Assembly: GCA_030696085.1 (NCBI GenBank)
Contig: JAUYNL010000022.1
Location: forward strand, 1-64,000
Origin: Luteolibacter sp.
Lineage (GTDB): Bacteria; Verrucomicrobiota; Verrucomicrobiia; Verrucomicrobiales; Akkermansiaceae
DNA length: 64,000 nucleotides
Direction: 5' to 3'
Part shown: one piece after another, positions 7,303-64,000 of the stretch
Numbering within the stretch: position 1 is the first letter of the stretch
Layout of the letters: each line of letters starts with the position of its first letter
Made by a program: the position numbers and the translations under genes
Notes under the pieces: model-generated
Databases searched by the model: none
Told to the model about the DNA's origin: nothing
The model's input: the letters and a program-made list of their open reading frames with translations, nothing else

Positions 7303-8544
7303 ATGCCCACCGTCCCCATCTTCATGCCCCAGCTCGGCGAATCCATCGCCGAGGCCACCGTCATCCGCCTCGGCATCGCGGTAGGAGACGCGGTGCGCAC
7401 CGACCAGGAAATCATCGAGGTGGAAACCAACAAGGCCGTGATGGGCGTGACCACCCTTTGCAACGGGATCGTTGCCGAAATCAAGGCCCAGGAAGGAGTT
7501 TCCTACTCGGTCGGATCTCTGTTAGGCCTGCTGGACGTCACCGAGGAGGAAGTCGCCCGCACCGGCGTGGACACCTTGGAATCACTCGAAGCGAAACGCA
7601 CCGATGCCGATCAATCCGCCAGTCCGGCCCGCGCCGAGGCCAACCTGCATTTCGCCCTTGATGATGGCGACGCCTACGAGGAAGCCCCGGCCGTGGTGCC
7701 CAGCGTGAAAGGCCTGCCGGTCCCCGCCGGCACCATGGGAGCCCACTACATTTCACCCCGCATGCGCGCCCGCATGAACGATCTCGGCCTGCGCGAGGCC
7801 GATATTTCCGCCGTCGCGGGAACTGGCGCCGGCGGCCGCGTCACCGTGGAGGACCTCGAACGATTCCTCGACTACCTCGAAGCATGGCCAAGCACCCAGG
7901 CCTCTCCGATGCGCCTCGCCGTGGCCGACGCCATGCGCCGGAGCTGGACCCGCCCGCTCGCCACCGTGGGCCTGCCCGTTCTTCTCGACCGCGTGCTCGA
8001 CCACCGGCGCAACCACACGCCGAAACCCGGCCTCACCCTTTACGTGCTCCGGGCATTCGCCATCGCGGTGGGGGAAAAACCCTCCGCCGCCGGTTACCTC
8101 ATCGGCGACAAAATCGTCCACCCGCGCTCACTGGACATCGGCGTGGCCGTGCAGGTGGAGGACGGCGTGCTGGTACCCGTCGTGCGCAAGGTGGATCAAA
8201 AAACCCTGCGCGACCTCATCGGAGAATACGACGATCTCATCGAGCGCGGCCGCCGCCGCCGCCTCAGCGAAGCGGATTGCAGCGGCGGCATCGCCACCGT
8301 GACCAACTTCGGCACCTTCGGCCTGACTCTCGGCACTCCGATCCCGCTGCCAAATGAAACCCTCATCCTGGGAATCGGGGCCGGTGTGAAAAAACCGGTT
8401 TGGAGCCAGGAAGTGGAAGCATTTCTTCCCGCCACCGTCGCGGAGATCTTCATCACATTCGACCACCGGGTGGTCGATGGCGGAGATGTCGGACTCCTGC
8501 TCAACCGGGTATCCGAGCTCCTCCAACAGCCCGAGGCCCTCTGA
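7303..8544 (+). CDS. Dihydrolipoamide acyltransferase (E2) of 2-oxoacid dehydrogenase complex
   Basis: N-terminal lipoyl domain (VETNKAVMGV), peripheral-subunit-binding domain (ISPRMRARMNDLGLREADISAVAGTGAGGRVTVEDLERF), catalytic FDHRVVDG. Confidence 0.93.
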   Translation: MPTVPIFMPQLGESIAEATVIRLGIAVGDAVRTDQEIIEVETNKAVMGVTTLCNGIVAEIKAQEGVSYSVGSLLGLLDVTEEEVARTGVDTLESLEAKRTDADQSASPARAEANLHFALDDGDAYEEAPAVVPSVKGLPVPAGTMGAHYISPRMRARMNDLGLREADISAVAGTGAGGRVTVEDLERFLDYLEAWPSTQASPMRLAVADAMRRSWTRPLATVGLPVLLDRVLDHRRNHTPKPGLTLYVLRAFAIAVGEKPSAAGYLIGDKIVHPRSLDIGVAVQVEDGVLVPVVRKVDQKTLRDLIGEYDDLIERGRRRRLSEADCSGGIATVTNFGTFGLTLGTPIPLPNETLILGIGAGVKKPVWSQEVEAFLPATVAEIFITFDHRVVDGGDVGLLLNRVSELLQQPEAL

Positions 8545-8574
8545 GACCTTGCTGAAAAGCGCGATTTCCAATGA

Positions 8575-8627
8575 GGAAGACAGGAAAGCAGGAATAGAAT
8601 TTGCTACCGATATTCCTCCTGTCTTCC
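8575..8627. repeat. Long imperfect inverted repeat / stem-loop downstream of E2 gene
   Basis: GGAAGACAGG(8575-8584)/CCTGTCTTCC(8618-8627) continuing into AGGAATA(8590-8596)/TATTCCT(8611-8617) with a 5-nt bulge. Confidence 0.75.
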
Positions 8628-8757
8628 CGCTTTCCAAAATCAACCCATCCAAATCCTGCCGCGGAGCCTGCTCGTTTGCCGGCATCTGCTGTTGATGTGC
8701 CGGCCCCGGCGTTTGGGTTTGCTTCGCGGGTCCATCCTGATTCAGAGTGCCGCTGCG

Positions 8758-9657
8758 ATGGAGAAACGCATGCCCGGATTACTTCGCTTTGTCAGCCGGG
8801 TGCTGGGGGATTTCTTCCTGCGCAACCACGGCCTGCTGCTGACAGGCGCGGTGGCCCACAGCATGATGCTTTCGCTCATTCCGCTCTCGGCGGTGCTGAT
8901 GGTGGCCGTCTCCCATTTCTTTGACCAGAAACTCCTGATGGAAGCCCTCACCACGGAAATCTCACTCATCGCGCCAGGCTTCGCCCCCACTCTAACCGAA
9001 GTTCTGGATGGCTTTCTACAAAACCGCAAGGTCGTGGGCTGGATCGGTCTGCTGATCCTGCTGTTCTTCAGTTCCATGGCCTTCCGGGTGATCGAGAATT
9101 CCATCGCCATCATTTTCCACAAGCCCATGCCGACCCTCAAACGCAAATTCTGGGTCTCCGCCCTGATGCCCTATCTGTTCGTTCTCATCGCCGCCGCCGG
9201 ACTGATCGTCATCACCTCCGCCAACGCCATCATTGATGCCCGCGGCCAGCTCCGCCATGTGTTTCCCCAGATCGACGCACTCATCCACCACCATCTGGGC
9301 TCCATCCTCTACGCCGGCGGCGTGCTCGGACTCGTGCTGCTTTTCACGCTGTTTTACAAAATCATGCCCGTGGGCAAGGTCTCCTTCCGCCTTGCCCTCG
9401 CCGGTGGAGTCACTGCCGCCATCCTCTGGGAAATCATCCGCCATCTGTTGGTCGCGTATTATACCAATGTCTCCATCGTCAACGTCCTCTACGGCTCGAT
9501 GGCCACCATCATCATCGTCCTGCTCACCATGGAGGCGGTCGCACTGGTCCTGCTGCTCGGAGCCCAGGTCATCGCGGACCTCCAGGGCAATGCCAACGCC
9601 GGCCTGCCATGGCACGAGGACCCGCCCGCCCCTCCCGGACCACCGTATCAGGTTTGA
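8758..9657 (+). CDS. YihY/BrkB family inner-membrane protein
   Basis: Multi-TM protein with BrkB-like sequence (AVAHSMMLSLIPLSAVLM..., FRVIENSIAIIF, LFTLFYKIMPVGKVSFRLALAGGVTAAILWEI). Confidence 0.82.
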   Translation: MEKRMPGLLRFVSRVLGDFFLRNHGLLLTGAVAHSMMLSLIPLSAVLMVAVSHFFDQKLLMEALTTEISLIAPGFAPTLTEVLDGFLQNRKVVGWIGLLILLFFSSMAFRVIENSIAIIFHKPMPTLKRKFWVSALMPYLFVLIAAAGLIVITSANAIIDARGQLRHVFPQIDALIHHHLGSILYAGGVLGLVLLFTLFYKIMPVGKVSFRLALAGGVTAAILWEIIRHLLVAYYTNVSIVNVLYGSMATIIIVLLTMEAVALVLLLGAQVIADLQGNANAGLPWHEDPPAPPGPPYQV

Positions 9658-9858
9658 TGACCCGCAGGACTCCCAATCTCTGCGCAAATCATGCCATGAC
9701 CTCGACTCCCTCCTCAGATATCTCATTATCAGCTCATCCGGCACAGGTCCGCCCCAGGCAAATCCCAGGGGTAAAATACGCGTAGCCTTAGCGACTTCCT
9801 GCGGTGTCAGTCACCCAGGACCTGCAATCATCCTTCCAACACACCCACTTCCGCCACA

Positions 9859-10272
9859 ATGATCACGAAAATCGACCACTTGGGCATCGCCGTCAAATCC
9901 CTCGACGAAGCCATCCCCTACTACGAAAACGTTCTGGGCCTCACCTGCGAAGGCCGCGAGGAAGTGGAATCCCAAAAAGTCCGCACCGCCTTCTTCGCGG
10001 CCGGAGACGTCCACATCGAACTGCTGGAGCCAACTTCCAACGAAAGCCCGATCGCGAAATTTCTCGAGAAAAACCCCTCGGGCGGCATCCATCACATCGC
10101 CTTCGCCACCACCGACATCAATGGCCAACTCGCGCAAGCCAAGGACAAGGGCGCGAAGTTGATTCACGAGGTCCCCTTTGAAGGTGCCGGTGACAAGCTC
10201 GTCGCATTCCTCCATCCGAAATCCACCTTCGGCGTGCTCACCGAGTTCTGCCAACCCGCCCACGCCCACTGA
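9859..10272 (+). CDS. mce: Methylmalonyl-CoA epimerase
   Basis: VOC-fold: IDHLGIAVKSLDEAIPYYENVLGL...VRTAFFAAGDVHIELLEPT...GGIHHIAFATTDI; next to MCM and decarboxylase genes. Confidence 0.92.
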   Translation: MITKIDHLGIAVKSLDEAIPYYENVLGLTCEGREEVESQKVRTAFFAAGDVHIELLEPTSNESPIAKFLEKNPSGGIHHIAFATTDINGQLAQAKDKGAKLIHEVPFEGAGDKLVAFLHPKSTFGVLTEFCQPAHAH

Positions 10273-10314
10273 AGCGACGGCCCGCCTCCTCACTCACAGC
10301 CATAGAATTCCGCC

Positions 10315-11868
10315 ATGCCCATCGACCCATCACTACTGGAAAGCCTCAAGCTCCGCCGCGAGGAAGCACTCATCGGAGGCGGCATCGACCGCATCGAAAA
10401 ACGCCACGAAAAAGGACTGCTCTCCGCCCGCGAACGCCTGTCCGCCTTCTTCGATGGCGGTCATTTCATCGAGTTCGGCATGCACGCCCACCACTCGTGC
10501 ATCAACTTCGGTCTCGAAAAACGCAAGATGCCCGGTGACGGCGTCGTCTGCGCCACCGGCTATGTCGATGGCCGCCCCGTCGCCGCCTATGCCCAGGACT
10601 TCACCGTCGGCGGCGGTGCCGTCGGGGCCATCCACGCCAAGAAAATCTGTGACCTGCTGGACTTCGCAATCAAGGCCGGCATGCCGGTGGTCGGCATCAA
10701 CGATTCCGGCGGAGCCCGCATTCAGGAAGGCATCGAAGCGCTTTCCGGCTACGGCCAGATCTTCTTCCGCAACGTGCTCGCCTCCGGCGTCATCCCGCAG
10801 ATCTCCATCATCGCCGGCCCCTGCGCCGGTGGTGCCGCCTACTCGCCCGCGCTCACCGACTTCATCATCATGACGCGGAAGAATTCCAACATGTTCATCT
10901 GCGGACCGGACGTCATCAAGGCCGCCACCGGCCAAACCGCCTCACTCGACCAGTTCGCCTCCGCCGATGCGCATGCCCAGATTTCCGGCAACATCCACCT
11001 CATCGCCGAAGATGACCAACATGCGATGGACCTGGCAAAAAAACTCCTCGATTACCTGCCCTCCAACAATCTTGGCGATCCACCGTACAAGATGAACAAC
11101 GACATCCCCTTCACCGAAGATCCCGGGATGAATGAAATCATCCCGGCCGATCCCAAGTCACCACTCGACATGCAGCAAGTCATCTGCCGTCTCGTGGACC
11201 CGGGCACCTGGTTTGAAATCCAGCCGGACTTCGCGCCCAACATGCTCACCGGCTTCGCAAAACTCGAAAACCTCGTCATCGGCATCATCGCCAACCAACC
11301 GACCGTCAAGGCCGGCTGCATCGACATCGATGCATCGGACAAAGCCGCCCGCTTCATCCGGGTTTGTAACATCTACTCGATCCCGATCCTCTCGCTCGTC
11401 GATGTTCCCGGCTTCATGCCCGGCCTCGCCCAGGAACGCGGCGGCATCATCCGCCACGGCGCGAAAATGCTCTTCGCATGGGCCTCCGGCACGGTGCCGA
11501 AAATCACCCTCATCTGCCGCAAGGCCTATGGCGGAGCCTACCTCGCCATGTGCCCGAGCGACCTCGGCGCGGACTTCGTTTTCGCCTGGCCCACCGCGGA
11601 AATCGCCGTCATGGGCGCCCAGGGCGCGATGAAGGTGCTCTACAAGAAGGAACTCGAGGAAGCCGAGGACCCCGCCGCCCTCGAACAGGAACTGCGCAAG
11701 GCCTACTCGGAGAAATTCGCATCTCCCTATCAGGCTGCCTCCAACGGCATGATCACCGACGTCATCGATCCCGCTGTTTCCCGCCGCACCCTGGCTCTCG
11801 CCTTCCGCGGCATCATGGGCAAGAGCGAGTCCCGCCCGCCCAAGAAACACGGCAACATCCCACTCTAA
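10315..11868 (+). CDS. mmdA: Methylmalonyl-CoA decarboxylase / acyl-CoA carboxyltransferase alpha subunit
   Basis: Carboxyltransferase domain: HFIEFG, GDGVVCATGYVDGRPVAAYAQDFTVGGGAVG, DSGGARIQEG, GPCAGGAAYSPALTDF, AWPTAEIAVMGAQGA. Confidence 0.92.
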   Translation: MPIDPSLLESLKLRREEALIGGGIDRIEKRHEKGLLSARERLSAFFDGGHFIEFGMHAHHSCINFGLEKRKMPGDGVVCATGYVDGRPVAAYAQDFTVGGGAVGAIHAKKICDLLDFAIKAGMPVVGINDSGGARIQEGIEALSGYGQIFFRNVLASGVIPQISIIAGPCAGGAAYSPALTDFIIMTRKNSNMFICGPDVIKAATGQTASLDQFASADAHAQISGNIHLIAEDDQHAMDLAKKLLDYLPSNNLGDPPYKMNNDIPFTEDPGMNEIIPADPKSPLDMQQVICRLVDPGTWFEIQPDFAPNMLTGFAKLENLVIGIIANQPTVKAGCIDIDASDKAARFIRVCNIYSIPILSLVDVPGFMPGLAQERGGIIRHGAKMLFAWASGTVPKITLICRKAYGGAYLAMCPSDLGADFVFAWPTAEIAVMGAQGAMKVLYKKELEEAEDPAALEQELRKAYSEKFASPYQAASNGMITDVIDPAVSRRTLALAFRGIMGKSESRPPKKHGNIPL

Positions 11869-51859: not shown

Positions 51860-54298
51860 TCATTTGACAATTCTCATTTCAACCAGTTTACCGGTCGTCT
51901 TCTTCGTATCGGGTTTCATGAAAATTTTGATGGACTGTTTCCCCCGCACCAGTTCCTCCGGGATATTGTAATGAGCCTCGATCAGACCTGCGGTGACACT
52001 GTTGTCCATCGGCATGTTGATTTTCGCGATCACCACGCCATCCACTTCAATGGAGAAGTCCCGCTGTGTTTCGTAAGTCGCGCGCCCCATATAGCGGCAA
52101 TAGAGCGAGAGCGGGGCTCCCTCGGCAACCTTGAGGGTATATCCAAGTCCGGCAGGCTTGTTGCTATGACGCCATGTCAGATGCCCCAGGTAGGCTCCGT
52201 TGTTGTTGCCAATGCCAATGCTGGTGTCAGCAACGGCCGCCGCGTGGGCATTTTCCGAATCACGGTTCCCCACCACGACCCGGTCCATCGTTCGCTGGTC
52301 GAGATCTTTGGAAGCTGCGGTTAGCCGTTCGACTTCCGCTGTGTGCGTCTGCCACTGTGCCGGAGTGACACAATCCCAGTAGATGCAGTGGGTCTGCTGA
52401 CGGAGTTTGTAAAACGGGTGCAGTTCCACCTCGCGCGGACGGCCAACCTGCGTCGTGTATATCAGCGGGGTGGAGGTGGCTTTGAGCCACTGGTCCAGTG
52501 GCTTGTCGCCTGCCATGATGACTGGCGCATAGCCCGGTTGTTCCACCAGTGGATCGGCAACGGGGCCAAGCACACCTGCAAGGAGGACCGGCCCGGCGAA
52601 TATGGCGACCCGGTTCGGATTATCGGGCATGGGCTCCGACCGGATTTTCAGCGGCGTCGTCACCGTCACGGTGTCGTCGTTGCGCCACTCACGACTGATG
52701 GGTATGAAACTTCCGGGCGTGGCCGAAACCGGATACGGCTGGCCATTGAGCTGAATCGTCACTCCCGCCGTGGCCCAGTGTGGATAGCGCACGTTCAGGA
52801 CGAAGCGGGTCGCTTGCGGCAAGTCCACCCGAAACACAGCCGTGTCTTCGTCCGGGAAGCGGGTCTCCTGTTTGAGGACGAGTTTCTTTTCCGGCCAGGT
52901 AACTTCCGAGGCAACCGCCAGATTGACGAACAGGTTTTCCGCATCATGGCTGTAGATATAGGTGGCCGTGCGGGCATAACTGTCAAACCCGCTGCACACG
53001 CAGCAGGAAAACACCTCTTCCGATTCAACCCGCTTGCGTGTTCCGGTCATCAGCGGAAGGAAGTAGCAGACGCTGCCATTGTCCGGATCCTGCGCGGCCA
53101 GGATATGGTTGAACAACACCCGTTCCATGTAATCCGCGTAGGCGGCCGACGGCTGGATGTTGAACAACAATTGCGTCAGGCGCAGCATGTTGTAGGAATT
53201 GCAGTTTTCCGCAGTGAAGGGTGTCAAGGTGTCGTTGAGCTTGTCTGCGGCGCAAAAATGCTCGCTCTCGCTGTTGCCGCCGTTCACATAACTGTGATGT
53301 TTCACCACGCTTTCCCAGAAAAATTCGGCGGTGGCGCGGTCTGAACTCACGCCGGAAAACGGGTAACGCGCCGCCAGGCCGCTGAATTGCGGAATGCTGG
53401 CATTGGCATGTCGCCCGCCAAGCACATCGTGCCCCTGCTCGAGAGGATCCATGATCCCGTGGTTCACCCAGCGCCGCGACAAGGCGAGAAATCGGGCGTC
53501 GCCGGAATCGGCATACAAGTCAGCCAACACCCAGTTCATTCCTCCGTATTCGGCGGACATCAATTTCTGCAACTGCGCGTCGGTGACATGCGACAGGTGC
53601 TCATCGAGCCAATTCCCGAGCTTGATGGCTATTTGCAGCGCCTTGGGCTGCCGTCCAATGCGGTAGGCATCTCTAAGACCGGAGAAGGTTTTTTCCAACG
53701 AATAATATGGCGTAGCCTGGCCAGTCCCGTCCCAGGGACTGAAGCCCTCGAATCGCCCCTCCTTCTCGACGCGCGCGAAGATCGCCCGCCCATTCTTGCA
53801 CCCCAGAAGATAGCCGCCCGTGGCTTCCTGACAGGCTGCCAACTCATCCAGAATGTAGCCTAGGCGTCGGACAAGTTCTTTGTTCCCGTTCGCCTCCGTC
53901 AGGTTGGATATTCCAGACAGGTAGAAGGCGAGGCCCACGCCGGGAAGAGAACCGGTCTCCCACCCCGTGTAGCGCGCGGCTTTTTCCGGAAGCCCGGCCT
54001 CGGCACGGTAGGGTGCCAGCAGGCGATCAACGTCAAGACTCAACAGGTGTTTCTCCGCGGCATCCCGTGACTGCTTCAACGGGCCATCCAGCAGATGCAC
54101 CCGGGCGGGTGGGAAAGAAACCGCCTTCGGGACCACGAGCGGCTGGGCCGGCGTGCTCGATGGATCGGTGTCAGCCAAGCACAATATGGATGTGCCGCCC
54201 ATCGCCATGATCACCATGGCCGTGTCAAGCGATAGCGCGCGTCCCAGGCTGACCAAGCCGCTGGCCATCGGGAGTGTGGTGCAAACCAGCAGTTTCAT
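51860..54298 (-). CDS. Secreted glycoside hydrolase, GH127/DUF1680-type (beta-L-arabinofuranosidase-like)
   Basis: VHLLDGPLKQSRDAAEKHLLSLDVDRLLAPYRAEAGL, ENCNSYNMLRLT (Glu-x-Cys) and EVFSCCVCSGFDSYAR (Cys-Cys) match the GH127 zinc/cysteine site. Confidence 0.88.
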   Translation of the reverse strand: MKLLVCTTLPMASGLVSLGRALSLDTAMVIMAMGGTSILCLADTDPSSTPAQPLVVPKAVSFPPARVHLLDGPLKQSRDAAEKHLLSLDVDRLLAPYRAEAGLPEKAARYTGWETGSLPGVGLAFYLSGISNLTEANGNKELVRRLGYILDELAACQEATGGYLLGCKNGRAIFARVEKEGRFEGFSPWDGTGQATPYYSLEKTFSGLRDAYRIGRQPKALQIAIKLGNWLDEHLSHVTDAQLQKLMSAEYGGMNWVLADLYADSGDARFLALSRRWVNHGIMDPLEQGHDVLGGRHANASIPQFSGLAARYPFSGVSSDRATAEFFWESVVKHHSYVNGGNSESEHFCAADKLNDTLTPFTAENCNSYNMLRLTQLLFNIQPSAAYADYMERVLFNHILAAQDPDNGSVCYFLPLMTGTRKRVESEEVFSCCVCSGFDSYARTATYIYSHDAENLFVNLAVASEVTWPEKKLVLKQETRFPDEDTAVFRVDLPQATRFVLNVRYPHWATAGVTIQLNGQPYPVSATPGSFIPISREWRNDDTVTVTTPLKIRSEPMPDNPNRVAIFAGPVLLAGVLGPVADPLVEQPGYAPVIMAGDKPLDQWLKATSTPLIYTTQVGRPREVELHPFYKLRQQTHCIYWDCVTPAQWQTHTAEVERLTAASKDLDQRTMDRVVVGNRDSENAHAAAVADTSIGIGNNNGAYLGHLTWRHSNKPAGLGYTLKVAEGAPLSLYCRYMGRATYETQRDFSIEVDGVVIAKINMPMDNSVTAGLIEAHYNIPEELVRGKQSIKIFMKPDTKKTTGKLVEMRIVK

Positions 54299-54372: not shown

Positions 54373-57306
54373 TCAGGGAGTAAGTATGAGGCGGACGGGG
54401 CTGAGGGATTGGCGCTCGATCCAGACGATCAGGTCGGTGCCCTCAATGGTGGTGTGATGGCCGATGCGGAAGTCTTTGCCGGGCGGGATGGTTTGGCCGT
54501 CGAGTGCCAGGCGCGGAGTGGTTTTTCCCCAGTTTTTGACGATGAGGCAGAAGTTTTGGAGCGGGGTTTCCGGGCTGGCTGCGAAGTCGCATTCGAGTGG
54601 CGCGGCGGGGGTGATGCGTTCCAGCAAATAGGCACGTTGGGTGGGATCATAGTTTCCGCCATGGTAGGCGGTGCCTTGCAGGTGCAGTGCGGGCGGGCGG
54701 AGCCAGGATTTGGCGAGCGGGAGGAGGTCCGGGGCGTGTTGGTCGGTGAGGCCGCAGAGCATGATTTTGGTGAGGGATTTTTCGCTGCGTTCGTAGGCGG
54801 CGCTGTATTGGGTGGCGGTGTAGGTTTGGGAAACCTGATCGGCGGCGACAGCGTAGCGGCCGATGATTTGGACTTGGTTGACGGGCCAGTGATTGCGCCA
54901 GGGGAAGGTGGAGAAATCGGACCAGGAGCCGCCGTAGCGCAGGATGGCGGGGCCGCGCCCGCCGCGATCATTGATGCCGTCCCGGTCATCGAGGATGAGG
55001 AAGGGATTGAAGACGGAGTTGAGGTAGGTGACCTGGATGTTGGCGAGGGGCAGCGCGGGGAGGGTCTGGCTGCGGGGGCCGGGTTCCCAGCCGTAGGTTT
55101 GGCTTTGGCCGGCCATGTTGGCGATGGACATGACGCGCTGCGGGTCTAGCAGATCTTCGGGGCGTTGGCCGGGATGGAGGATTTGGAGGGATTGGCACCA
55201 TTCGTGCCATTCGTCGAGTTTGCCGCTCCAGAGTGTGACTTTGCGGGCGGCGACGCCATCGGGATAGACGGTGTAGGTTTCCTCCGACCAATCGCCCCAG
55301 CCGGTTTCCGGGTCTTCGAAGGGGATTTGGTAGTTCACGCCGACGGGTGAGTTGCGCCAGAAGATGACGGTGCGGGCGGCGTTGTTTTCGAGGATTTTGA
55401 CGTGGGAGAAGCGGGCCTGTTTGTCGGACATGGATTCGCAGCAGCCCATGCCGGTGACGTGGGCGCGCTCGACGAATTCGTTGCTCATCCAGTGGCCTTT
55501 TTCGGTGACAAAGCAGGGGGCGTAGGAAATGCCGCGCCAGCAGACGAGGCGGAAGGGTGCCTTGTCGAAGGCGACGACGACGTCCGGGCCGTCCCCGCGC
55601 CATTGCTCGTCCCATTCCTCGCAGTATTTCAAGGGGGTGTAAAACGCGCCGAATTGATCGAGTTTCGCCGGGCCGGAGGGAAGTCTGCGCGGGATGAGAT
55701 CGGGCGGGGCGGAGGGCTTGGTGGCGGTGAAGGTGCTGGAGATTTCCGCAGGGCTGAGGCAGCTATCGTGAAATGTGAGTTCGTCGAGGATGCCATCGAG
55801 CGAGCAATGGACGGGGATGTTTTTTGCCTCGAAGGCGCAGGGTTCTTTCTTGCGGTTGCGGGCGATCCAGAGGTCGGTCTCGGCGGGAGTGAACGTGCCG
55901 GTGAGGGCGAGTTGGCCGACGTTTTTCCCATCGAGGTAGAGGGTGATGCCGGTGGCGGGATCGAAGGTGGCGGCGAGGTGGGACCACTGCATGAGCGGCA
56001 GTTTGGCGGTGGATGTGGCCTCGTGCCATTTGCCATCCACGGCGAGCAGGAGGCCGAAGTGGCCCTCGGCATCGATGCGGAATGAGTAGCCCGCCGTTGC
56101 GTCGGATTGTCGGGCGGCGATGGCGCACCATGTCCAGGGATAGGCCTGCGGGGCAAACCACGCCTGGATGCTCAACGGGCCGGAAATTCGGGGTGCCTGC
56201 TCCGCCGGGATGACGAGGCGGGTGGAGAAACCATCGCACTTGAGGCCGGTGCCGACGGCTCCGGCGCGGCGGCGGAAATTGCCGGTGATCGGGCTTTCAC
56301 GGCTGCTTTCGGTCTCTCGGGCGAGCTTGCCCTCCGGTTCCTCGAAGCTCCAGCGGGCGATGGGGTTCACGGGCGCCGCATCGTCCGGGAACTGGAACGG
56401 CGGCCGACCGGTGAGGGAGGTGCTGGTGATCGTGGGGCACCAGTAACGCTCGGTGTGCTCGATGATGAGATCCGTGCCGCGGAAGTGGTTGAAACCGGGT
56501 GTTTTGGGTTCAAAGAACGAATCCGTCAGGTCGCGGCACAATACCACGTCCATCCCGAGATAGGTCATCTGCCGGATGCCGAACGGCCGGCCGAGCATGC
56601 AAATGTTCGCATGAACGCCCATGACGATGACATGCCGGATGCCGCGCTGGCGGAAGAGATTGTATAACTCCTGGCCCTGATCGGTGATGGCATCCTGCGG
56701 GGCGATTTCGAGGGTGTCGATCTGCCGGGTCCAATTGCGGAAACGCCTGGGGCACGGCGGCTCGCACCCGGTGCAACTGCCGACGCCCTCGATCTGCCCG
56801 TCGCGCGTGAGTTCGTCCGGGTAGGTGAGTTCGATCTTCGGATCGCGGTCATGCCACTTGAAAACGACCGGGGCCTTTTCCATCGGGGCGCTTTGGGCGA
56901 GCTTGCGCTGGGGAGCTTCCTGATAGAAATCCATGCAGTCGGCGGGCGAGTGAACAATCAGCACGCCCTTCTCCCGCGCCGCCTTGAGGGTTCCGTTGAT
57001 TGCCGGAGCCAGTTGGCCGACCCGCCGTGCGGCGGCCTTGCAGTGGTGGTTGTCCCACATATCGATGACCACGATGGCGGTCTGTGCGGGATCCCACGAA
57101 ATGCGCTTGGTGGTGACGGCGAAGCGGGAGCTGCCGGGCGGCGTCTCAGCGCGGGCGCGGGTTTCAAGCTGGAGGACGGATTCCCCTTCCCCATCCGCCC
57201 GCGCCGCGCCACAGGCCAAACCGACGGCGCAGATGGCCAGCAGGATCCATAGCGGCGAAGGTGAAGTGGTTTTCCGGAGTGAGGTTGGATTTTTGACGGA
57301 ATTCAT
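54373..57306 (-). CDS. Secreted isochorismatase-like + LamG/concanavalin-like + unassigned C-terminal region protein
   Basis: Signal peptide; QTAIVVIDMWDNHHC...HVIVMGVHANICMLGRPFGIRQM (isochorismatase-like Asp/Cys); IARWSFEEPEG...LSIQAWFAPQAYPWTWCAIAAR...WSHLAATFDPATGITLYLDGK (LamG); about 430-aa C-terminal region unassigned. Confidence 0.8.
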   Translation of the reverse strand: MNSVKNPTSLRKTTSPSPLWILLAICAVGLACGAARADGEGESVLQLETRARAETPPGSSRFAVTTKRISWDPAQTAIVVIDMWDNHHCKAAARRVGQLAPAINGTLKAAREKGVLIVHSPADCMDFYQEAPQRKLAQSAPMEKAPVVFKWHDRDPKIELTYPDELTRDGQIEGVGSCTGCEPPCPRRFRNWTRQIDTLEIAPQDAITDQGQELYNLFRQRGIRHVIVMGVHANICMLGRPFGIRQMTYLGMDVVLCRDLTDSFFEPKTPGFNHFRGTDLIIEHTERYWCPTITSTSLTGRPPFQFPDDAAPVNPIARWSFEEPEGKLARETESSRESPITGNFRRRAGAVGTGLKCDGFSTRLVIPAEQAPRISGPLSIQAWFAPQAYPWTWCAIAARQSDATAGYSFRIDAEGHFGLLLAVDGKWHEATSTAKLPLMQWSHLAATFDPATGITLYLDGKNVGQLALTGTFTPAETDLWIARNRKKEPCAFEAKNIPVHCSLDGILDELTFHDSCLSPAEISSTFTATKPSAPPDLIPRRLPSGPAKLDQFGAFYTPLKYCEEWDEQWRGDGPDVVVAFDKAPFRLVCWRGISYAPCFVTEKGHWMSNEFVERAHVTGMGCCESMSDKQARFSHVKILENNAARTVIFWRNSPVGVNYQIPFEDPETGWGDWSEETYTVYPDGVAARKVTLWSGKLDEWHEWCQSLQILHPGQRPEDLLDPQRVMSIANMAGQSQTYGWEPGPRSQTLPALPLANIQVTYLNSVFNPFLILDDRDGINDRGGRGPAILRYGGSWSDFSTFPWRNHWPVNQVQIIGRYAVAADQVSQTYTATQYSAAYERSEKSLTKIMLCGLTDQHAPDLLPLAKSWLRPPALHLQGTAYHGGNYDPTQRAYLLERITPAAPLECDFAASPETPLQNFCLIVKNWGKTTPRLALDGQTIPPGKDFRIGHHTTIEGTDLIVWIERQSLSPVRLILTP

Positions 57307-57592: not shown

Positions 57593-58672
57593 GTGCCGAG
57601 GCCGCCCGCAAATCCCCACCCCTCCCCCAATCCGCTTCCGGTTGCGCACAGCAGGCCGAACTTGAAACAACTGGCCGCCTCGCTGGGGATTTCAATATCC
57701 ACCGTTTCACGAGTCATGAGCGGGCGGGCGGAACAATGCCGCATCGCTCCCGCCACCCGGCAATTGATTCTGGCAGAAGCCGGAAGACTCGGCGTGGTTG
57801 TGGATCAATACGCACGCGGGCTGCGCCTGCGGCAAACCCTAACCATCGGGTTGCTGATTCCCGACATCGCGAACCCCTTCTTCGCGAACCTCGCCTGCGC
57901 GGTGGAAAAGGCCGCCCGCGCCCATGGTTATGCCGTTTTGCTTTGCGACAGCCAGGAATCCACCGCGCTGGAAATGGAATCCGTCAATCTGCTGCATGGG
58001 CGGCGGGTGGATGGCATGATCCTGGCCCCGGTGGGGGAGGAGCACCTGCATTTGCTTTCCCTGCAACAGACCGGCATGCCGATCGTGCTGGTGGACCGGG
58101 TATTCCCCGAATGGGAAGTGCCGAGCGTGGTATCGGATAATTTGAGTGGAGCGCGGATGGCGGTGAATCATCTGCTGGCATGTGGCCACCGTCGCATCGG
58201 CTGTGTGCAGGGCCTGCCCACGAGCTACTCGAATATGGAGCGTCTGCGCGGATATAAGTCCGCGCTGGAGGATGCCGGCATCCGCTTTGATGCCAAGCTG
58301 GTGAGCGGCAGCGATTTCACGGCGGAGAGCGGCTATCGCGGCACGCTGGAATTGTGCGAAAATCCGGAGAAGCGTCCGTCCGCGTTGTTCGCCTTGGGGA
58401 GCCTGCTGGCGTTTGGAGCCATCCGGGCGATTCACGAGTGCGGTCTCAAGGTCGCGGCGGATATTTCCGTGGTTTCCTTCGATGAACAACCATGGGCCCA
58501 GTTTCTCGCGCCATCGCTCACAACCGTGGCCCAGCCGGTGGAGCAACTCGCCACGCAAGCCGTCTCGATGCTGCTCGGAGCGATGAAGCCCGGCACCGGC
58601 GGCAAACCCACAGCGGGTGTCCGGGCCCTGCCGGTGGAGCTGATTTTCCGCGAATCGGTGCGGACTTTGTGA
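57593..58672 (+). CDS. LacI-family transcriptional regulator
   Basis: LKQLAASLGISISTVSRVMSGRAEQCRIAPATRQLILAEAGRLGV HTH; periplasmic-binding-like sensor IGLLIPDIANPFFANLACAVEKAARAHGY. Confidence 0.93.
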   Translation: MPRPPANPHPSPNPLPVAHSRPNLKQLAASLGISISTVSRVMSGRAEQCRIAPATRQLILAEAGRLGVVVDQYARGLRLRQTLTIGLLIPDIANPFFANLACAVEKAARAHGYAVLLCDSQESTALEMESVNLLHGRRVDGMILAPVGEEHLHLLSLQQTGMPIVLVDRVFPEWEVPSVVSDNLSGARMAVNHLLACGHRRIGCVQGLPTSYSNMERLRGYKSALEDAGIRFDAKLVSGSDFTAESGYRGTLELCENPEKRPSALFALGSLLAFGAIRAIHECGLKVAADISVVSFDEQPWAQFLAPSLTTVAQPVEQLATQAVSMLLGAMKPGTGGKPTAGVRALPVELIFRESVRTL

Positions 58673-58789: not shown

Positions 58790-59800
58790 ATGACCATCGT
58801 CGAATCCTACCCGCTTGCCGTGGCACTCTGTGTCCTCACCATGTTATGTTGGGGTTCCTGGGCCAATACCCAGAAACTCGCCAGCAAGGAATGGCGCTTC
58901 CAACTGTTCTACTGGGACTACGCCATCGGCGTGTTCCTGCTCGCGCTGTTGCTGGCTTTCACGCTCGGCAGCACCGGTGAGGGCGGGCGCGGGTTTCTCA
59001 CCGACCTGCGGCAGGCCGATTCCAAATGGCTCGGCGCGGCCCTGCTCGGCGGCGTGATCTTCAATCTTTCCAACATCCTGCTGGTCGCCGCGATCGACAT
59101 CGCAGGGATGGCCGTGGCGTTTCCGGTGGGAGTCGGCCTCGCGCTGGCGCTAGGCGTGGTCACCACCTACATCGCCAAGCCGGAGGGCAATGTCCCGATG
59201 CTGGCGACCGGGGTGGCGGCGATTGTCGTCGCCATCATTCTCGATGCCCTGGCGTATCGCAAACTGGCATCCAACAGCAGCCGGACACCCACCAAGGGAA
59301 TCGTGATCGCGGTGGCGGCGGGTTTGCTCATGGGATGGTTCTATAGCTTCGTGGCGCAATCCATGGGACAACTCGACCCTCTAACGAAAACATTGGAGGC
59401 CGGAAAACTCAGCCCCTACACGGCGATCGTCGTGTTTTCATTCGGTTTGTTGATTTCCAACTTCCTCTGGAACAGCATCATGATGGTAAAGCCTCTCTCC
59501 GGCGGACCCGTGCCCTTCGGGGATTACTTTTCCAAGGGCAACTTTCGTTTGCACGCCATCGGCATCCTCGGCGGAGTGATCTGGAATCTGGGCATGTCCA
59601 TGAGCATCATCGCCAGCACCAAGGCCGGCGCGGCGCTCTCCTACGGGCTGGGACAGGGCGCGACGATGATCGGCGCGTTCTGGGGCGTGTTCGTCTGGAA
59701 GGAGTTCAAAGGCGCGCCGCAGGGAACCAATAAGCTGCTCGCGGCCATGTTCGTGTTCTATCTGATCGGACTCGCGGTTCTGGTGAGTTCTAAGTTTTGA
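58790..59800 (+). CDS. DMT-superfamily GRP-type sugar transporter (glucose/ribose porter-like)
   Basis: Ten-TM-like MTIVESYPLAVALCVLTMLCWGSWANTQKLASKEWRFQLFYWDYAIGVFLLALLL; next to a LacI regulator and carbohydrate-active genes. Confidence 0.75.
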   Translation: MTIVESYPLAVALCVLTMLCWGSWANTQKLASKEWRFQLFYWDYAIGVFLLALLLAFTLGSTGEGGRGFLTDLRQADSKWLGAALLGGVIFNLSNILLVAAIDIAGMAVAFPVGVGLALALGVVTTYIAKPEGNVPMLATGVAAIVVAIILDALAYRKLASNSSRTPTKGIVIAVAAGLLMGWFYSFVAQSMGQLDPLTKTLEAGKLSPYTAIVVFSFGLLISNFLWNSIMMVKPLSGGPVPFGDYFSKGNFRLHAIGILGGVIWNLGMSMSIIASTKAGAALSYGLGQGATMIGAFWGVFVWKEFKGAPQGTNKLLAAMFVFYLIGLAVLVSSKF

Positions 59801-59854: not shown

Positions 59855-62092
59855 ATGAATTCACTTTTCCTGATCGCCATCACCTCGGTGCCGCTCCTTT
59901 CCCTGGCCGCCCAAGGGCAAACACAATATCGCAAGATCTCGTTGGAAGATTATCGCGACAAGATGAAGGCCGGCTGGATCGGCCAAATCGCAGGGGTCTC
60001 CCTGGGCGGCCCCACCGAGTTCAAATCCAACGACAGGATCATCCCGGAAAGCGAAATGCCGAAGTGGCAGCCGGACCTCATCAACCGGGCCTTCAATCAG
60101 GACGATGTCTATGTGGAGATGACATTCCTGCGCACGATGGAACTCCATGGACTCGATTGCTCCATCCGCCAGGCCGGTATCGACTTCGCAAACACCAGCT
60201 ACCCGCTTTGGTGCGCCAACCGCGAAGGGCGGATCAACCTGCGCAAGGGCATCGCGCCGCCTGATTCCAGCCATCCCCGGTTCAATGGCAGCGCGACCAT
60301 CATCGACTATCAGATCGAGAGCGACTACTCCGGGTTGATCGCCCCCGGCATGCCGAACGTCGCCATCGCCATGGGTGACAAGTTCGGACGGCTGGTCAAC
60401 TACGGCGACGGAGTCTATGCCGGACAATTCATCGGTGCCATGTATGCCGCGGCATTTTTCGAGAAGGACATCCGCAAAGTGGTGGAACTCGGCCTGCAGG
60501 CAATCCCCGCCGACAGCCAATATGCCGCCTTCGTCCGCGACATGTTGCAATGGTCCAAGGAGATCCCCGAGTGGGAAAAAACCTGGGAATTGCTCAACGA
60601 GAAATATTATAAAAACCCGGAGTACGTGAAAAAATACGGCGGAAATTCCCAGGTCGATGCCCGGATCAATGGAGCCTACGTCCTGATGGGCCTGCTCTAT
60701 GGCAAGGGCGATCCGGATCAGACCATGATCATCGCCACCCGCTGCGGCAAGGACTCGGATTGCAATCCATCCACCGCCGCCGGCGTTCTTTTCACCACGC
60801 TCGGTTTCAAGAATCTTCCCGAACGGTTCACCAGGAATCTCGACGAGAAACAAATCTTCACCAGCACGGTGTACAATGTCCCCACTTTGATCGATGTCTG
60901 CGAACAACTCGCGAGAAAAGCGGTCGTCAAGGAAGGTGGCCGCATCGTGAAAGACGCGAACGGCGCGGAGGTTTTCCAGATCCCGGCAAGAGCGGCAAAA
61001 CCAGGCCCGCTGGAATCGAGTTTCGCGCCCGGTCCCATCGCGAACAGCACCTACACCCCGGAGGAAATGGCACGGATCACCGCGCCCGTCCCGTCGCCGG
61101 CCTTGAAAAAAGCCTTCGCGGCGTTCGCGCCTGAATGGTCGCTGACCTACTGCAATACCGCCACGAATCTTGGACTCATTGCCGAGGAGCGCGGACGCAG
61201 CAACGTCTTCGCCACGCTACCTTTTGATAACTGCACACCATGCGTTTTGAGCCGTAATGTCGATATTCGCCCCGGCAAGAAAACCGTGTTGAAACTCGCG
61301 GTGGCCGATCACGTTCAAAATGGCGAATGGTTGCTGGAGGTGCAGGTCGATGGGCGGAAAATCTACCGCCAGTTCATCGGCAAGGATGTCGAGGCCGATC
61401 TCGCCCGGAAAATCATCACCCCGGCCAAAGCGGAACAGGACCGGAAGCTGCCCGGCAAGGCACCGGGCGCTGATGGCTGGACGGAATTGGAAATCGACCT
61501 TTCGGAATACGCCGGTAATAGAATCCTTCTCGGCCTCGGCAATGGGCCGACGGACGGTTATCATAACGAAACGGCTTACTGGTCGAAAATCGCCGTCGAG
61601 GAAGTCGGCGAAGCGGATTTGAGCGAACGCGTTTCTCCGGGCGCGACCACCAATGAAACGTTGAAACAGGACGTGGAGAAATTCGCTCCCGGCTGGGCGC
61701 TTTCCTATTGCGGGGATTTCAGCAAACCCGGCCTGCGCGATACGGTCCTGAGCCGACGGAATGTGCTGGTCACTCATCCCTTTGATAGGGATACCGCCTG
61801 CGTTCTCGCCAAAAAGCTGACCGTGCCGGCGGGAAAAAAGACCACGCTCGGTTTTTCCGCCGGACATGATCCAGCGGGAGACTGGTTGCTCGAAGTGCAG
61901 GTGAACCGCAAAGTTCTTGTTAGCAAGGTCGTGACCAAGGATACCACGACTGACGGCTGGATGAACGTGGTTGTGGACCTCACTCCCTATGCGGGGCAGT
62001 CGGTGTTTGTTGAACTTCTCAATCAACCGAATGGCTGGTCCTATGAAACGGGATACTGGGCAAACCTCATCGTCGAGACCAAGGATCGCTGA
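59855..62092 (+). CDS. Secreted ADP-ribosylglycohydrolase-family protein with tandem C-terminal domains
   Basis: Signal MNSLFLIAITSVPLLSLAAQGQ; YRDKMKAGWIGQIAGVSLGGPTEF, NQDDVYVEMTFLRTM, TRCGKDSDCNPSTAAGVLFTTLGF (ARH-like metal motifs); two related C-terminal repeats. Confidence 0.85.
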   Translation: MNSLFLIAITSVPLLSLAAQGQTQYRKISLEDYRDKMKAGWIGQIAGVSLGGPTEFKSNDRIIPESEMPKWQPDLINRAFNQDDVYVEMTFLRTMELHGLDCSIRQAGIDFANTSYPLWCANREGRINLRKGIAPPDSSHPRFNGSATIIDYQIESDYSGLIAPGMPNVAIAMGDKFGRLVNYGDGVYAGQFIGAMYAAAFFEKDIRKVVELGLQAIPADSQYAAFVRDMLQWSKEIPEWEKTWELLNEKYYKNPEYVKKYGGNSQVDARINGAYVLMGLLYGKGDPDQTMIIATRCGKDSDCNPSTAAGVLFTTLGFKNLPERFTRNLDEKQIFTSTVYNVPTLIDVCEQLARKAVVKEGGRIVKDANGAEVFQIPARAAKPGPLESSFAPGPIANSTYTPEEMARITAPVPSPALKKAFAAFAPEWSLTYCNTATNLGLIAEERGRSNVFATLPFDNCTPCVLSRNVDIRPGKKTVLKLAVADHVQNGEWLLEVQVDGRKIYRQFIGKDVEADLARKIITPAKAEQDRKLPGKAPGADGWTELEIDLSEYAGNRILLGLGNGPTDGYHNETAYWSKIAVEEVGEADLSERVSPGATTNETLKQDVEKFAPGWALSYCGDFSKPGLRDTVLSRRNVLVTHPFDRDTACVLAKKLTVPAGKKTTLGFSAGHDPAGDWLLEVQVNRKVLVSKVVTKDTTTDGWMNVVVDLTPYAGQSVFVELLNQPNGWSYETGYWANLIVETKDR

Positions 62093-62119: not shown

Positions 62120-64000
62120 ATGAAACACTTGCACCGTCTGTTATTTGCAATTTTCATTTCATCTCTGGCGACTGCCGCCGTGGAACCCTTGCCATTCGTG
62201 ATTCCGTCCGCAGTGCGCGATGCGCAGGATTTCCAGGCACCTGATCGCGTCCACCTTGATGGTTGGATCGGCCTTCGCATTGCCGGAAACGAAGCGAACC
62301 GGCTGGTGAAGATCGAGCCGGACCGGCTGCTGGAAGGGTATCGCAAGCGTCCCGGACGCCAGACATGGGATGGCGAACATGTTGGGAAATGGCTGCACGC
62401 GGCGACTTTGGCATGGGCGAATACCCGTGATCCGGCGTTGCGGGCGAAACTGGATGAAACGGTGGCGGAGCTCTCCAAATGCCAGCTTGCCGACGGCTAT
62501 CTCGGCACCTATTTGGAAAAGGATCGTTGGACCGAATGGGATGTCTGGGCGCACAAATACAATTTGCTCGGACTGTTGACTTACATGCAATACACCGGCA
62601 ACCGTGAGCCGCTCGGTGTATGCCGGAAAATGGCCGACCTGTTATGTGGTACTTTTGGCGAAGCTCCCGGGCAACGCGATATTCTCACCGCCGGACAACA
62701 CGCGGGAATGGCGCCCACCAGCGTTCTGGAGCCGATGGTTTTGCTATACCGGGTGACCGGAGAAAAACGCTACCTGGATTTCTGCCGCTACATTCTGCGG
62801 GCCTGGGAGCATGACAACGGGCCTCACATCGTATCGCGCCTGTTGGAGCAAAAACGCGTGGACAAGGTCGGCAATGCCAAAGCCTATGAAATGCTCTCGT
62901 GCCTGAACGGCGCGTTGGAATATTACCGTCTCGCCGGAGACCGGAAAATCCTGGATGCCTGTTTGAACGCGTGGCAGGACATCGTGGATTATCGCCTCTA
63001 TGTCACCGGCACCGCCAGTTATCTCGAATATTTCCATGATAACTTCGATCTCCCCAACAACGACAACGTCGGTGAGACCTGCGTCACGGTCACCTGGCTC
63101 CAGTTCAACGCCCAACTGCTGCGGCTCACGGGTGAATCGCGTTTTGCGGAGCAACTGGAGAAAGTCGTGCTGAATCATTTGTTCGGGGCGCAGCGCCCGG
63201 ATTGCGCGGCTTGGGGATATTATGTGCAAATGGAGGGCAGGAAGCCTTACAGTGACTCCTTTGACGGGCACTGCTGTCTTTCAAGCGGCCCGCGCGGCGT
63301 CTCGCTGATCCCGACCTTTGCCATCTCGACCGATGCGGATGGCGTGGTGGTCAATTTTCACGAGACGGGGAAAGCCTCCGTCAAACTGCGTGACGGCAGC
63401 GAAGTGGACCTAATCACAAAGACCACCTATCCCTCTGCCGGGGAAATCCGGATTCAGGTCAATCCGAAGGCCGCGAAGGAATTCACCGTGAAATTGCGCA
63501 TCCCCGCGTGGTGCGGGAGCGCTGCCTTGAAGGTGGCGGGAAAGACGGTGGACCTCGCCACCGGAACCGACGGTTATGCGGCGGTCAAACGGATCTGGGA
63601 GCCGGGCGATGTCATGGAATTGACCTTGCCCATGGAGCCACGGATCATCGCCGGAGATCATGGAAACGATGGCAAGGCGGCGGTAACTGTCGGCCCTCTG
63701 GTTCTGGCTGCGGACGATTCGTTGATGGAAGACACCGGGCTGAATGTGAATTCAATCCTCTTGTCATCGGATGATCTATCAACATTGAAAGTGACCTCCG
63801 AACCGACGCCTGAAGCATTCAAGACCTGGCCGGGCGCACGCGCCTTCCGGGTGTCCGGCATCGCCCGCAAAACCACTTCCCGGGTGAAAGCCGGTGATTC
63901 GATTTCCATCCGCCTGGTGCCGTTCGCCGACGTGGGAGCCACAGGTGCCCGCTACAAGGTGTGGCTGCCGTTGCCGCGCTGCAACGATTTCAATCTGCTC
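62120..64000 (+). CDS. Secreted glycoside hydrolase, GH127/DUF1680-type (second copy), truncated at window end
   Basis: Signal MKHLHRLLFAIFISSLATAAVEPL; VHLDGWIGLRIAGNEANRLVKIEPDRLLEGYRKRPGRQTWDGEHVGKWLHAATLAW; GETCVTVTWLQFN (Glu-x-Cys) and FDGHCCLSSGPRG (Cys-Cys). Open to the window edge, so absent from the ORF track. Confidence 0.88.
   Translation, partial: MKHLHRLLFAIFISSLATAAVEPLPFVIPSAVRDAQDFQAPDRVHLDGWIGLRIAGNEANRLVKIEPDRLLEGYRKRPGRQTWDGEHVGKWLHAATLAWANTRDPALRAKLDETVAELSKCQLADGYLGTYLEKDRWTEWDVWAHKYNLLGLLTYMQYTGNREPLGVCRKMADLLCGTFGEAPGQRDILTAGQHAGMAPTSVLEPMVLLYRVTGEKRYLDFCRYILRAWEHDNGPHIVSRLLEQKRVDKVGNAKAYEMLSCLNGALEYYRLAGDRKILDACLNAWQDIVDYRLYVTGTASYLEYFHDNFDLPNNDNVGETCVTVTWLQFNAQLLRLTGESRFAEQLEKVVLNHLFGAQRPDCAAWGYYVQMEGRKPYSDSFDGHCCLSSGPRGVSLIPTFAISTDADGVVVNFHETGKASVKLRDGSEVDLITKTTYPSAGEIRIQVNPKAAKEFTVKLRIPAWCGSAALKVAGKTVDLATGTDGYAAVKRIWEPGDVMELTLPMEPRIIAGDHGNDGKAAVTVGPLVLAADDSLMEDTGLNVNSILLSSDDLSTLKVTSEPTPEAFKTWPGARAFRVSGIARKTTSRVKAGDSISIRLVPFADVGATGARYKVWLPLPRCNDFNLL

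Follow-up and report, generated by a model that had tools for sequence, protein, structure and literature searches.

The question raised by this locus in Luteolibacter sp. is what a protein with the fold of ADP-ribosylhydrolases (ARHs) and a signal-like N terminus does within an operon of sugar genes. We propose, with a probability of roughly two in three, that it is an exported enzyme that would free ribose from an extracellular riboside and thereby feed a ribose uptake operon. If true, a signaling-enzyme fold has been turned into a nutrient acquisition enzyme by the exchange of its diphosphate contacts, with the ribose-binding metal site kept. A literature search for glycosidases or ribofuranosidases known to have the ARH fold returned nothing relevant. 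The automatic name given to at least 562 relatives suggests protein de-ADP-ribosylation, and many similar genes may be misleadingly named. A comparison of root-associated Verrucomicrobia, for example, took PF03747 enrichment as protein de-ADP-ribosylation (PMC7251102); if the exported members are ribosidases, this enrichment would instead mean carbon scavenging.

The ARH-fold gene and its operon

The gene lies on the forward strand at positions 59855-62092 of the window, which is the whole 64,000-nucleotide stretch that was analyzed. It begins with ATG and encodes a protein of 745 residues, a probable ribosidase. The N terminus carries the hydrophobic stretch MNSLFLIAITSVPLLSLAAQG, and residues 1 to approximately 23 (59855..59923) form a predicted signal peptide region. 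A hydrophobic N-terminal stretch is also present in 103 of 111 relatives, with a lipobox-like site in 16. The call of the signal peptide noted in the sequence-only reading, and with it the predicted export of the protein, comes from a heuristic for hydrophobic N termini only.

PF03747 matches residues 40 to 324 (E value of 3.4e-27; 96.3 bits against a cutoff of 26.2) and is covered from profile position 2 to 287 of 287, so the domain is full-length. The AF2 model (mean pLDDT of 87.5) consists of a helical domain followed by two beta-sandwiches. The helical domain (residues 24 to 360; 59924..60934) is modeled with high confidence from about residue 25 to 360, with a pLDDT of approximately 90 to 99 over most of its length. 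Foldseek places it with DraG (2woe), ARH3 (6g1q_B), and ARH1 (6g28), with TM-scores by target of 0.70, 0.69, and 0.59, respectively. PDB sequence searches gave marginal matches only, and the fold was assigned by this fold search, which recovers the all-helical ARH fold that had been suspected from motifs.

The two C-terminal beta-sandwiches, which the sequence-only reading had not mentioned, were delimited by AF2 strands and Foldseek. The first (residues 419 to 586; 61109..61612) is a candidate CBM22-like jelly roll, and the second (residues 601 to 745; 61655..62089) is 37% identical to it. As a tandem they match the CBM22 tandem 4xup (E value of 4e-8), but with a low TM-score over the tandem.

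The operon has the order LacI, GRP, ARH, GH127, and RbsK, all on the forward strand. From GRP to RbsK, consecutive genes are separated by 54, 27, and 7 bases. Its first gene (57593..58672) encodes a LacI-family regulator (PF13377, 6e-34); among full-length NCBIfam models it is closest to CytR and RbsR, with both scores below cutoff. LacI proteins 43 to 45% identical adjoin the same transporter at L128, L129, and L132. That transporter is GRP/ureide-permease-like (DMT type; 58790..59800; PF07168, 1e-18) and is a probable ribose importer. Downstream of the ARH-fold gene, a GH127-family gene (PF07944, 5e-58; PF20736) with a signal-like N terminus and the E-x-C and HCC motifs occupies 62120..64000 of the window and ends at contig position 64456. 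The ribokinase gene rbsK (contig 64464-65390; TIGR02152, 362 bits against a cutoff of 299.65) starts 7 bases after the GH127 stop and 464 bases beyond the end of the window, and no other gene in the genome exceeds that cutoff. Profile matches on both sides of the ARH-fold gene verify the flanking LacI, transporter, and GH127 genes that had been named from the letters.

A second GH127-family gene, with DUF6805, is found at 51860-54298 (PF07944, 7e-95). It lies on the opposite strand with an unrelated gene between, and it is only loosely part of the locus, in which both GH127 genes of the genome sit. Also on the reverse strand, positions 54373-57306 encode an exported-looking protein in which isochorismatase-like and LamG domains are combined with a long C-terminal stretch that has no assignment. 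Downstream of the operon are the genes of two large paralogs that contain autotransporter-like repeats (contig G000:C19, 67087-70155 and 70239-73133; L126:5088-8156 and 8240-11134); the second paralog has a PEP-CTERM-like tail. Neither a TonB receptor nor SusD is found among the operon genes. The genome has no match to the PF01156 nucleoside hydrolases or to AraA_N (L-arabinose isomerase), absences that are not certain because it is 96% complete. Inverted repeats exist upstream of the operon, where a search for a LacI operator gave nothing decisive.

Ribose genes and hydrolases in related loci

The GRP transporter is encoded in 21 of the 289 genomes of the phylum, with copies 77 to 81% identical in distant Verrucomicrobiota. 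RbsK is immediately adjacent to it in 19 of the 20 GRP loci outside the window. A nucleoside hydrolase gene lies at most four genes away in nine of these 20 (L130, L131, L132, L134, L135, L139, L142, L143, and L144); PF01156 was confirmed directly in L131, L134, and L142, and the remaining six are close homologues of these or of L084 genes, which also match PF01156. An ARH gene with the pattern GxDSDCNP is at most two genes away in four of the 20 loci, and GH127 is at most two genes away in two, one of which encodes an ARH::GH127 fusion as a single 1180-aa ORF (L128:5465-9004). The shared core of these loci is RbsK-GRP, and the accompanying hydrolase swaps with nucleoside hydrolases.

Genes with GxDSDCNP were found in 18 of the 289 genomes, eight of which also have the GRP transporter (hypergeometric, 5e-6). 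The two genes are at most 3 kb apart in 5 of the 18, or in 4 of 17 without the window against an expected 0.03, a number that overstates independence since the four pairs come from two genera only. Conservation of the neighborhood in related genomes, which the sequence-only reading had proposed as a check, is seen as a near-constant RbsK beside GRP and as ARH-GRP pairs above expectation.

Within the same GTDB genus, several genomes have ARH copies, often in tandem, that are 54 to 69% identical over the ARH region, with one at 43% (genes at the loci were called with a codon-based caller). One locus has the order ARH-GRP-RbsK-GH127, with a GRP of 81% identity (L038). GRP is missing at L033 and L043, where an Rbs-type sugar ABC transporter is found instead beside RbsK and two ARHs; at L033 the transporter genes are RbsC/RbsA/RbsB-like, and GH127 genes lie farther off in the locus. 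Other copies in the genus adjoin genes for a GH106 rhamnosidase, GDSL, L-rhamnose isomerase (RhaA), FucP, and a pectate-lyase-fold protein, and Pec_lyase and glucuronyl esterase genes are also found near other copies; with such neighbors, a role on plant polysaccharide would fit as well. Two unusual architectures were also seen: an ARH domain fused behind a truncated GH106 stretch (L034:1-2178, reverse strand) and one behind a largely unassigned N-terminal region of approximately 620 residues (L039:2559-5645, reverse strand).

Across species genomes, a single-sequence scan found no ARH relatives, and an alignment scan revealed at least 562 relatives with the ARH signature in at least six phyla. 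RbsK is near ARH in 7 of the 79 named loci kept from the scan, and GRP is present in 6, all of them also with RbsK. Loci with ARH, GRP, and RbsK occur in Petrimonas (L059), Planctomycetota (L066), KSB1 (L119), and Verrucomicrobia/Lentisphaerae (L084, L086, and L088, the last two near-identical). On the tree, the association of ARH with ribose genes requires 12 changes, at least six of them on well-supported branches; thus, the association arose or was kept several times. Most members of the ARH group are not adjacent to ribose genes, and since ribokinase is near so few of them, the group as a whole may act more broadly. In Chloroflexota, two genes (L103:11923-13491 and L115:4939-6558) encode an N-terminal LacI-type HTH with an ARH domain replacing the usual sugar-binding domain. 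Each neighbors a gene for an exported ARH and one for a sugar ABC transporter, and their products are possible ARH-based transcription sensors.

The alternative that survives these comparisons best is an exported furanosidase for plant polysaccharide, which would take off arabinofuranosyl or similar units together with GH127, the ribokinase being incidental or serving another pentose. It would account for the GH127 neighbors and the ARH::GH127 fusion, for the GH106, RhaA, FucP, pectate-lyase-type, and glucuronyl esterase genes near the other copies, and for the CBM22-like repeats of the protein itself. However, AraA_N is unmatched in the genome, and the loci share an RbsK-GRP core in which the hydrolase is interchangeable with nucleoside hydrolases; we consider such a furanosidase unlikely. 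Among the candidate furanosides, genomic context supports a ribosyl unit specifically, because the operon ends in the only ribokinase of the genome, because GRP in relatives is nearly always beside ribokinase and often beside nucleoside hydrolases, and because AraA_N has no match. The sequence-only reading had left ribosyl, arabinosyl, and other furanoside linkages side by side; the ribosyl option is the one retained, and the arabinosyl one is disfavored. Its further suggestion, uptake of the product through GRP, gains support from RbsK, both in the operon and beside nearly every GRP, and GRP remains a predicted importer.

The active site compared with that of ADP-ribosylhydrolases

Residues of interest in the helical domain are E55, Q82-D83-D84, D151, E155, N182, D185, and D300-S-D302-C303-N-P; the Q82-D83-D84 and G298-K-D300-S-D302-C303-N-P motifs were found as first described. 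The acidic metal ligands of the PF03747 fold (Glu flap, DD, and DxD) are present as E55, D83-D84, D300, and D302. Among 14 homologues from a protein search, which is free of motif recruitment bias, D83, D84, D300, and D302 are invariant, and E55, D83, and D84 are kept in 53 to 54 of 54 more distant homologues. In the larger set, GxDSDCNP is invariant in part by construction, as loci were recruited by that pattern.

ARH1 and ARH3 have the metal motifs E...(S/T)DDT...D(S/T)D(S/T), their metals bind the distal ribose through its 2'' and 3'' hydroxyls, and a conserved Gly and His (G130 and H163 in hARH1) contact the diphosphate of ADP-ribose (PMC6309922, PMC7050489). Single mutations of metal ligands abolished activity in both enzymes (PMC6309922). 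The (S/T)DDT and D(S/T)D(S/T) motifs are not matched here, where QDD(L/V/I) and DSDC are found instead, and Q82 and C303 stand where the characterized ARHs have Ser/Thr metal ligands, a difference that weighs against the enzymatic reading. A Cys at the position of C303 also occurs in 13 of 30 other PF03747 proteins. By alignment and spacing, with no superposed structure, the Gly of GAAMR corresponds to D151 in 31 of 31 members of the ARH group, and N182 takes the place of the TH His in 30 of 31; the Arg of GAAMR is E155 in all 31. In the comparison set of 30 other PF03747 proteins, Gly and His are each kept in 29. The Gly and His positions are 31 residues apart here, compared with 33 in hARH1 (G130-H163) and 30 in LchARH3 (G138-H168). 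Because the metal ligands are kept and the diphosphate contacts are replaced, the ribose-binding metal center is retained in the ARH group and the diphosphate site appears to be lost.

These replaced contacts argue against a canonical ADP-ribosyl function. As the database name has it, the protein would be an exported true ADP-ribosylhydrolase that de-ADP-ribosylates proteins or cleaves ADP-ribose or NAD outside the cell, and the PF03747 score over cutoff, the structural similarity to DraG, ARH3, and ARH1, and the conserved metal aspartates are all compatible with that name. However, across the group the diphosphate Gly and His have become Asp and Asn and the Arg of GAAMR has become Glu, and the operon would import and phosphorylate a free sugar. 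Canonical ARH reactions yield ADP-ribose, which is not a ribokinase substrate. We regard this function as highly improbable. The same holds for a nonenzymatic binder or sensor, an exported ARH-fold sugar-binding protein with an altered metal site, which the Gln and Cys at two Ser/Thr ligand positions and the Chloroflexota fusions (showing that the fold can be recruited beside a regulator domain) would favor but which is at odds with acidic metal ligands and a Glu-flap glutamate in essentially every homologue, unusual for a dead enzyme, and with the predicted hydrolases otherwise found in the same place in GRP loci.

We also asked whether the other PF03747 protein of the genome (G000:C101:62830-63639; L002) might be a second ribosidase, but it has neither the DD nor the DxD motif and was rejected on that ground; with THYGDQT and GGDNAARG, it looks like a nonmetal pseudoenzyme. 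A second large PF03747 group in Verrucomicrobiota (L174, L175, L176, L177, L178, L179, L180, and L185) keeps the His and is marked by motifs of the NDDLD and D(T)DC(T/N)GA types. PF03747 proteins reach up to nine copies per genome (G109).

Proposed ribose release and known systems

In the ribosidase reading that we prefer, the exported ARH-fold enzyme would no longer bind ADP-ribose. A terminal ribofuranosyl unit would be held by its cis-diol at the binuclear metal site, and the enzyme would hydrolyze the bond at C1; the extracellular riboside would be either a nucleoside or a glycan that bears ribose. D-Ribose released in this way would then be imported via the adjoining GRP transporter and phosphorylated by the RbsK of the operon, which LacI probably controls, and GH127 would probably take a neighboring sugar off the same substrate. 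We give about even odds to the two kinds of substrate: a nucleoside or small riboside is suggested because nucleoside hydrolases hold the same place in sister loci, and a ribose-bearing glycan is suggested because GH127 and CBM-like modules accompany ARH. A broader proposal, that these proteins are a new glycoside hydrolase family with the ARH fold that strips ribofuranosyl units from polymeric glycans with GH127 in many phyla, using a Gln/Cys-remodeled metal site, is tentative and somewhat doubtful.

Compared with ARH1, ARH3, and DraG, the protein shares the fold, the acidic binuclear metal site, and the glutamate of the Glu flap, but it differs in its predicted export, the loss of the diphosphate Gly and His, the Q82 and C303 ligands, and the two C-terminal beta-sandwiches. 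The inosine-uridine preferring nucleoside hydrolases of PF01156, which release free ribose, occupy the same slot beside GRP-RbsK in relatives, although their fold is unrelated. GH127, a family that includes beta-L-arabinofuranosidase and aceric acid hydrolase, is a recurrent partner and is once fused to ARH, but its fold and catalytic chemistry are different.

The closest functional parallel to the operon, by analogy of gene content, is the rus locus of Bacteroides thetaiotaomicron (BT2803-2809), for which published accounts describe ribokinases, a nucleoside hydrolase, and a proposed ribose importer, RusT (PMC12596196, PMC10434189). The rus locus encodes a TonB receptor and SusD along with its nucleoside hydrolase, whereas the operon instead has LacI, the ARH-fold protein, and GH127, with no outer membrane uptake pair. 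The primary paper on rus is said to report ADP-ribosylglycohydrolase genes in some Bacteroidetes rus variants; if so, the link between ARH and ribose has been partly noted already and the novelty of the present proposal is lower. The two systems are alike in combining a ribokinase, a DMT-type permease (likened by type only), and a ribose-releasing hydrolase, the last of these being a prediction in the case of the operon described here.
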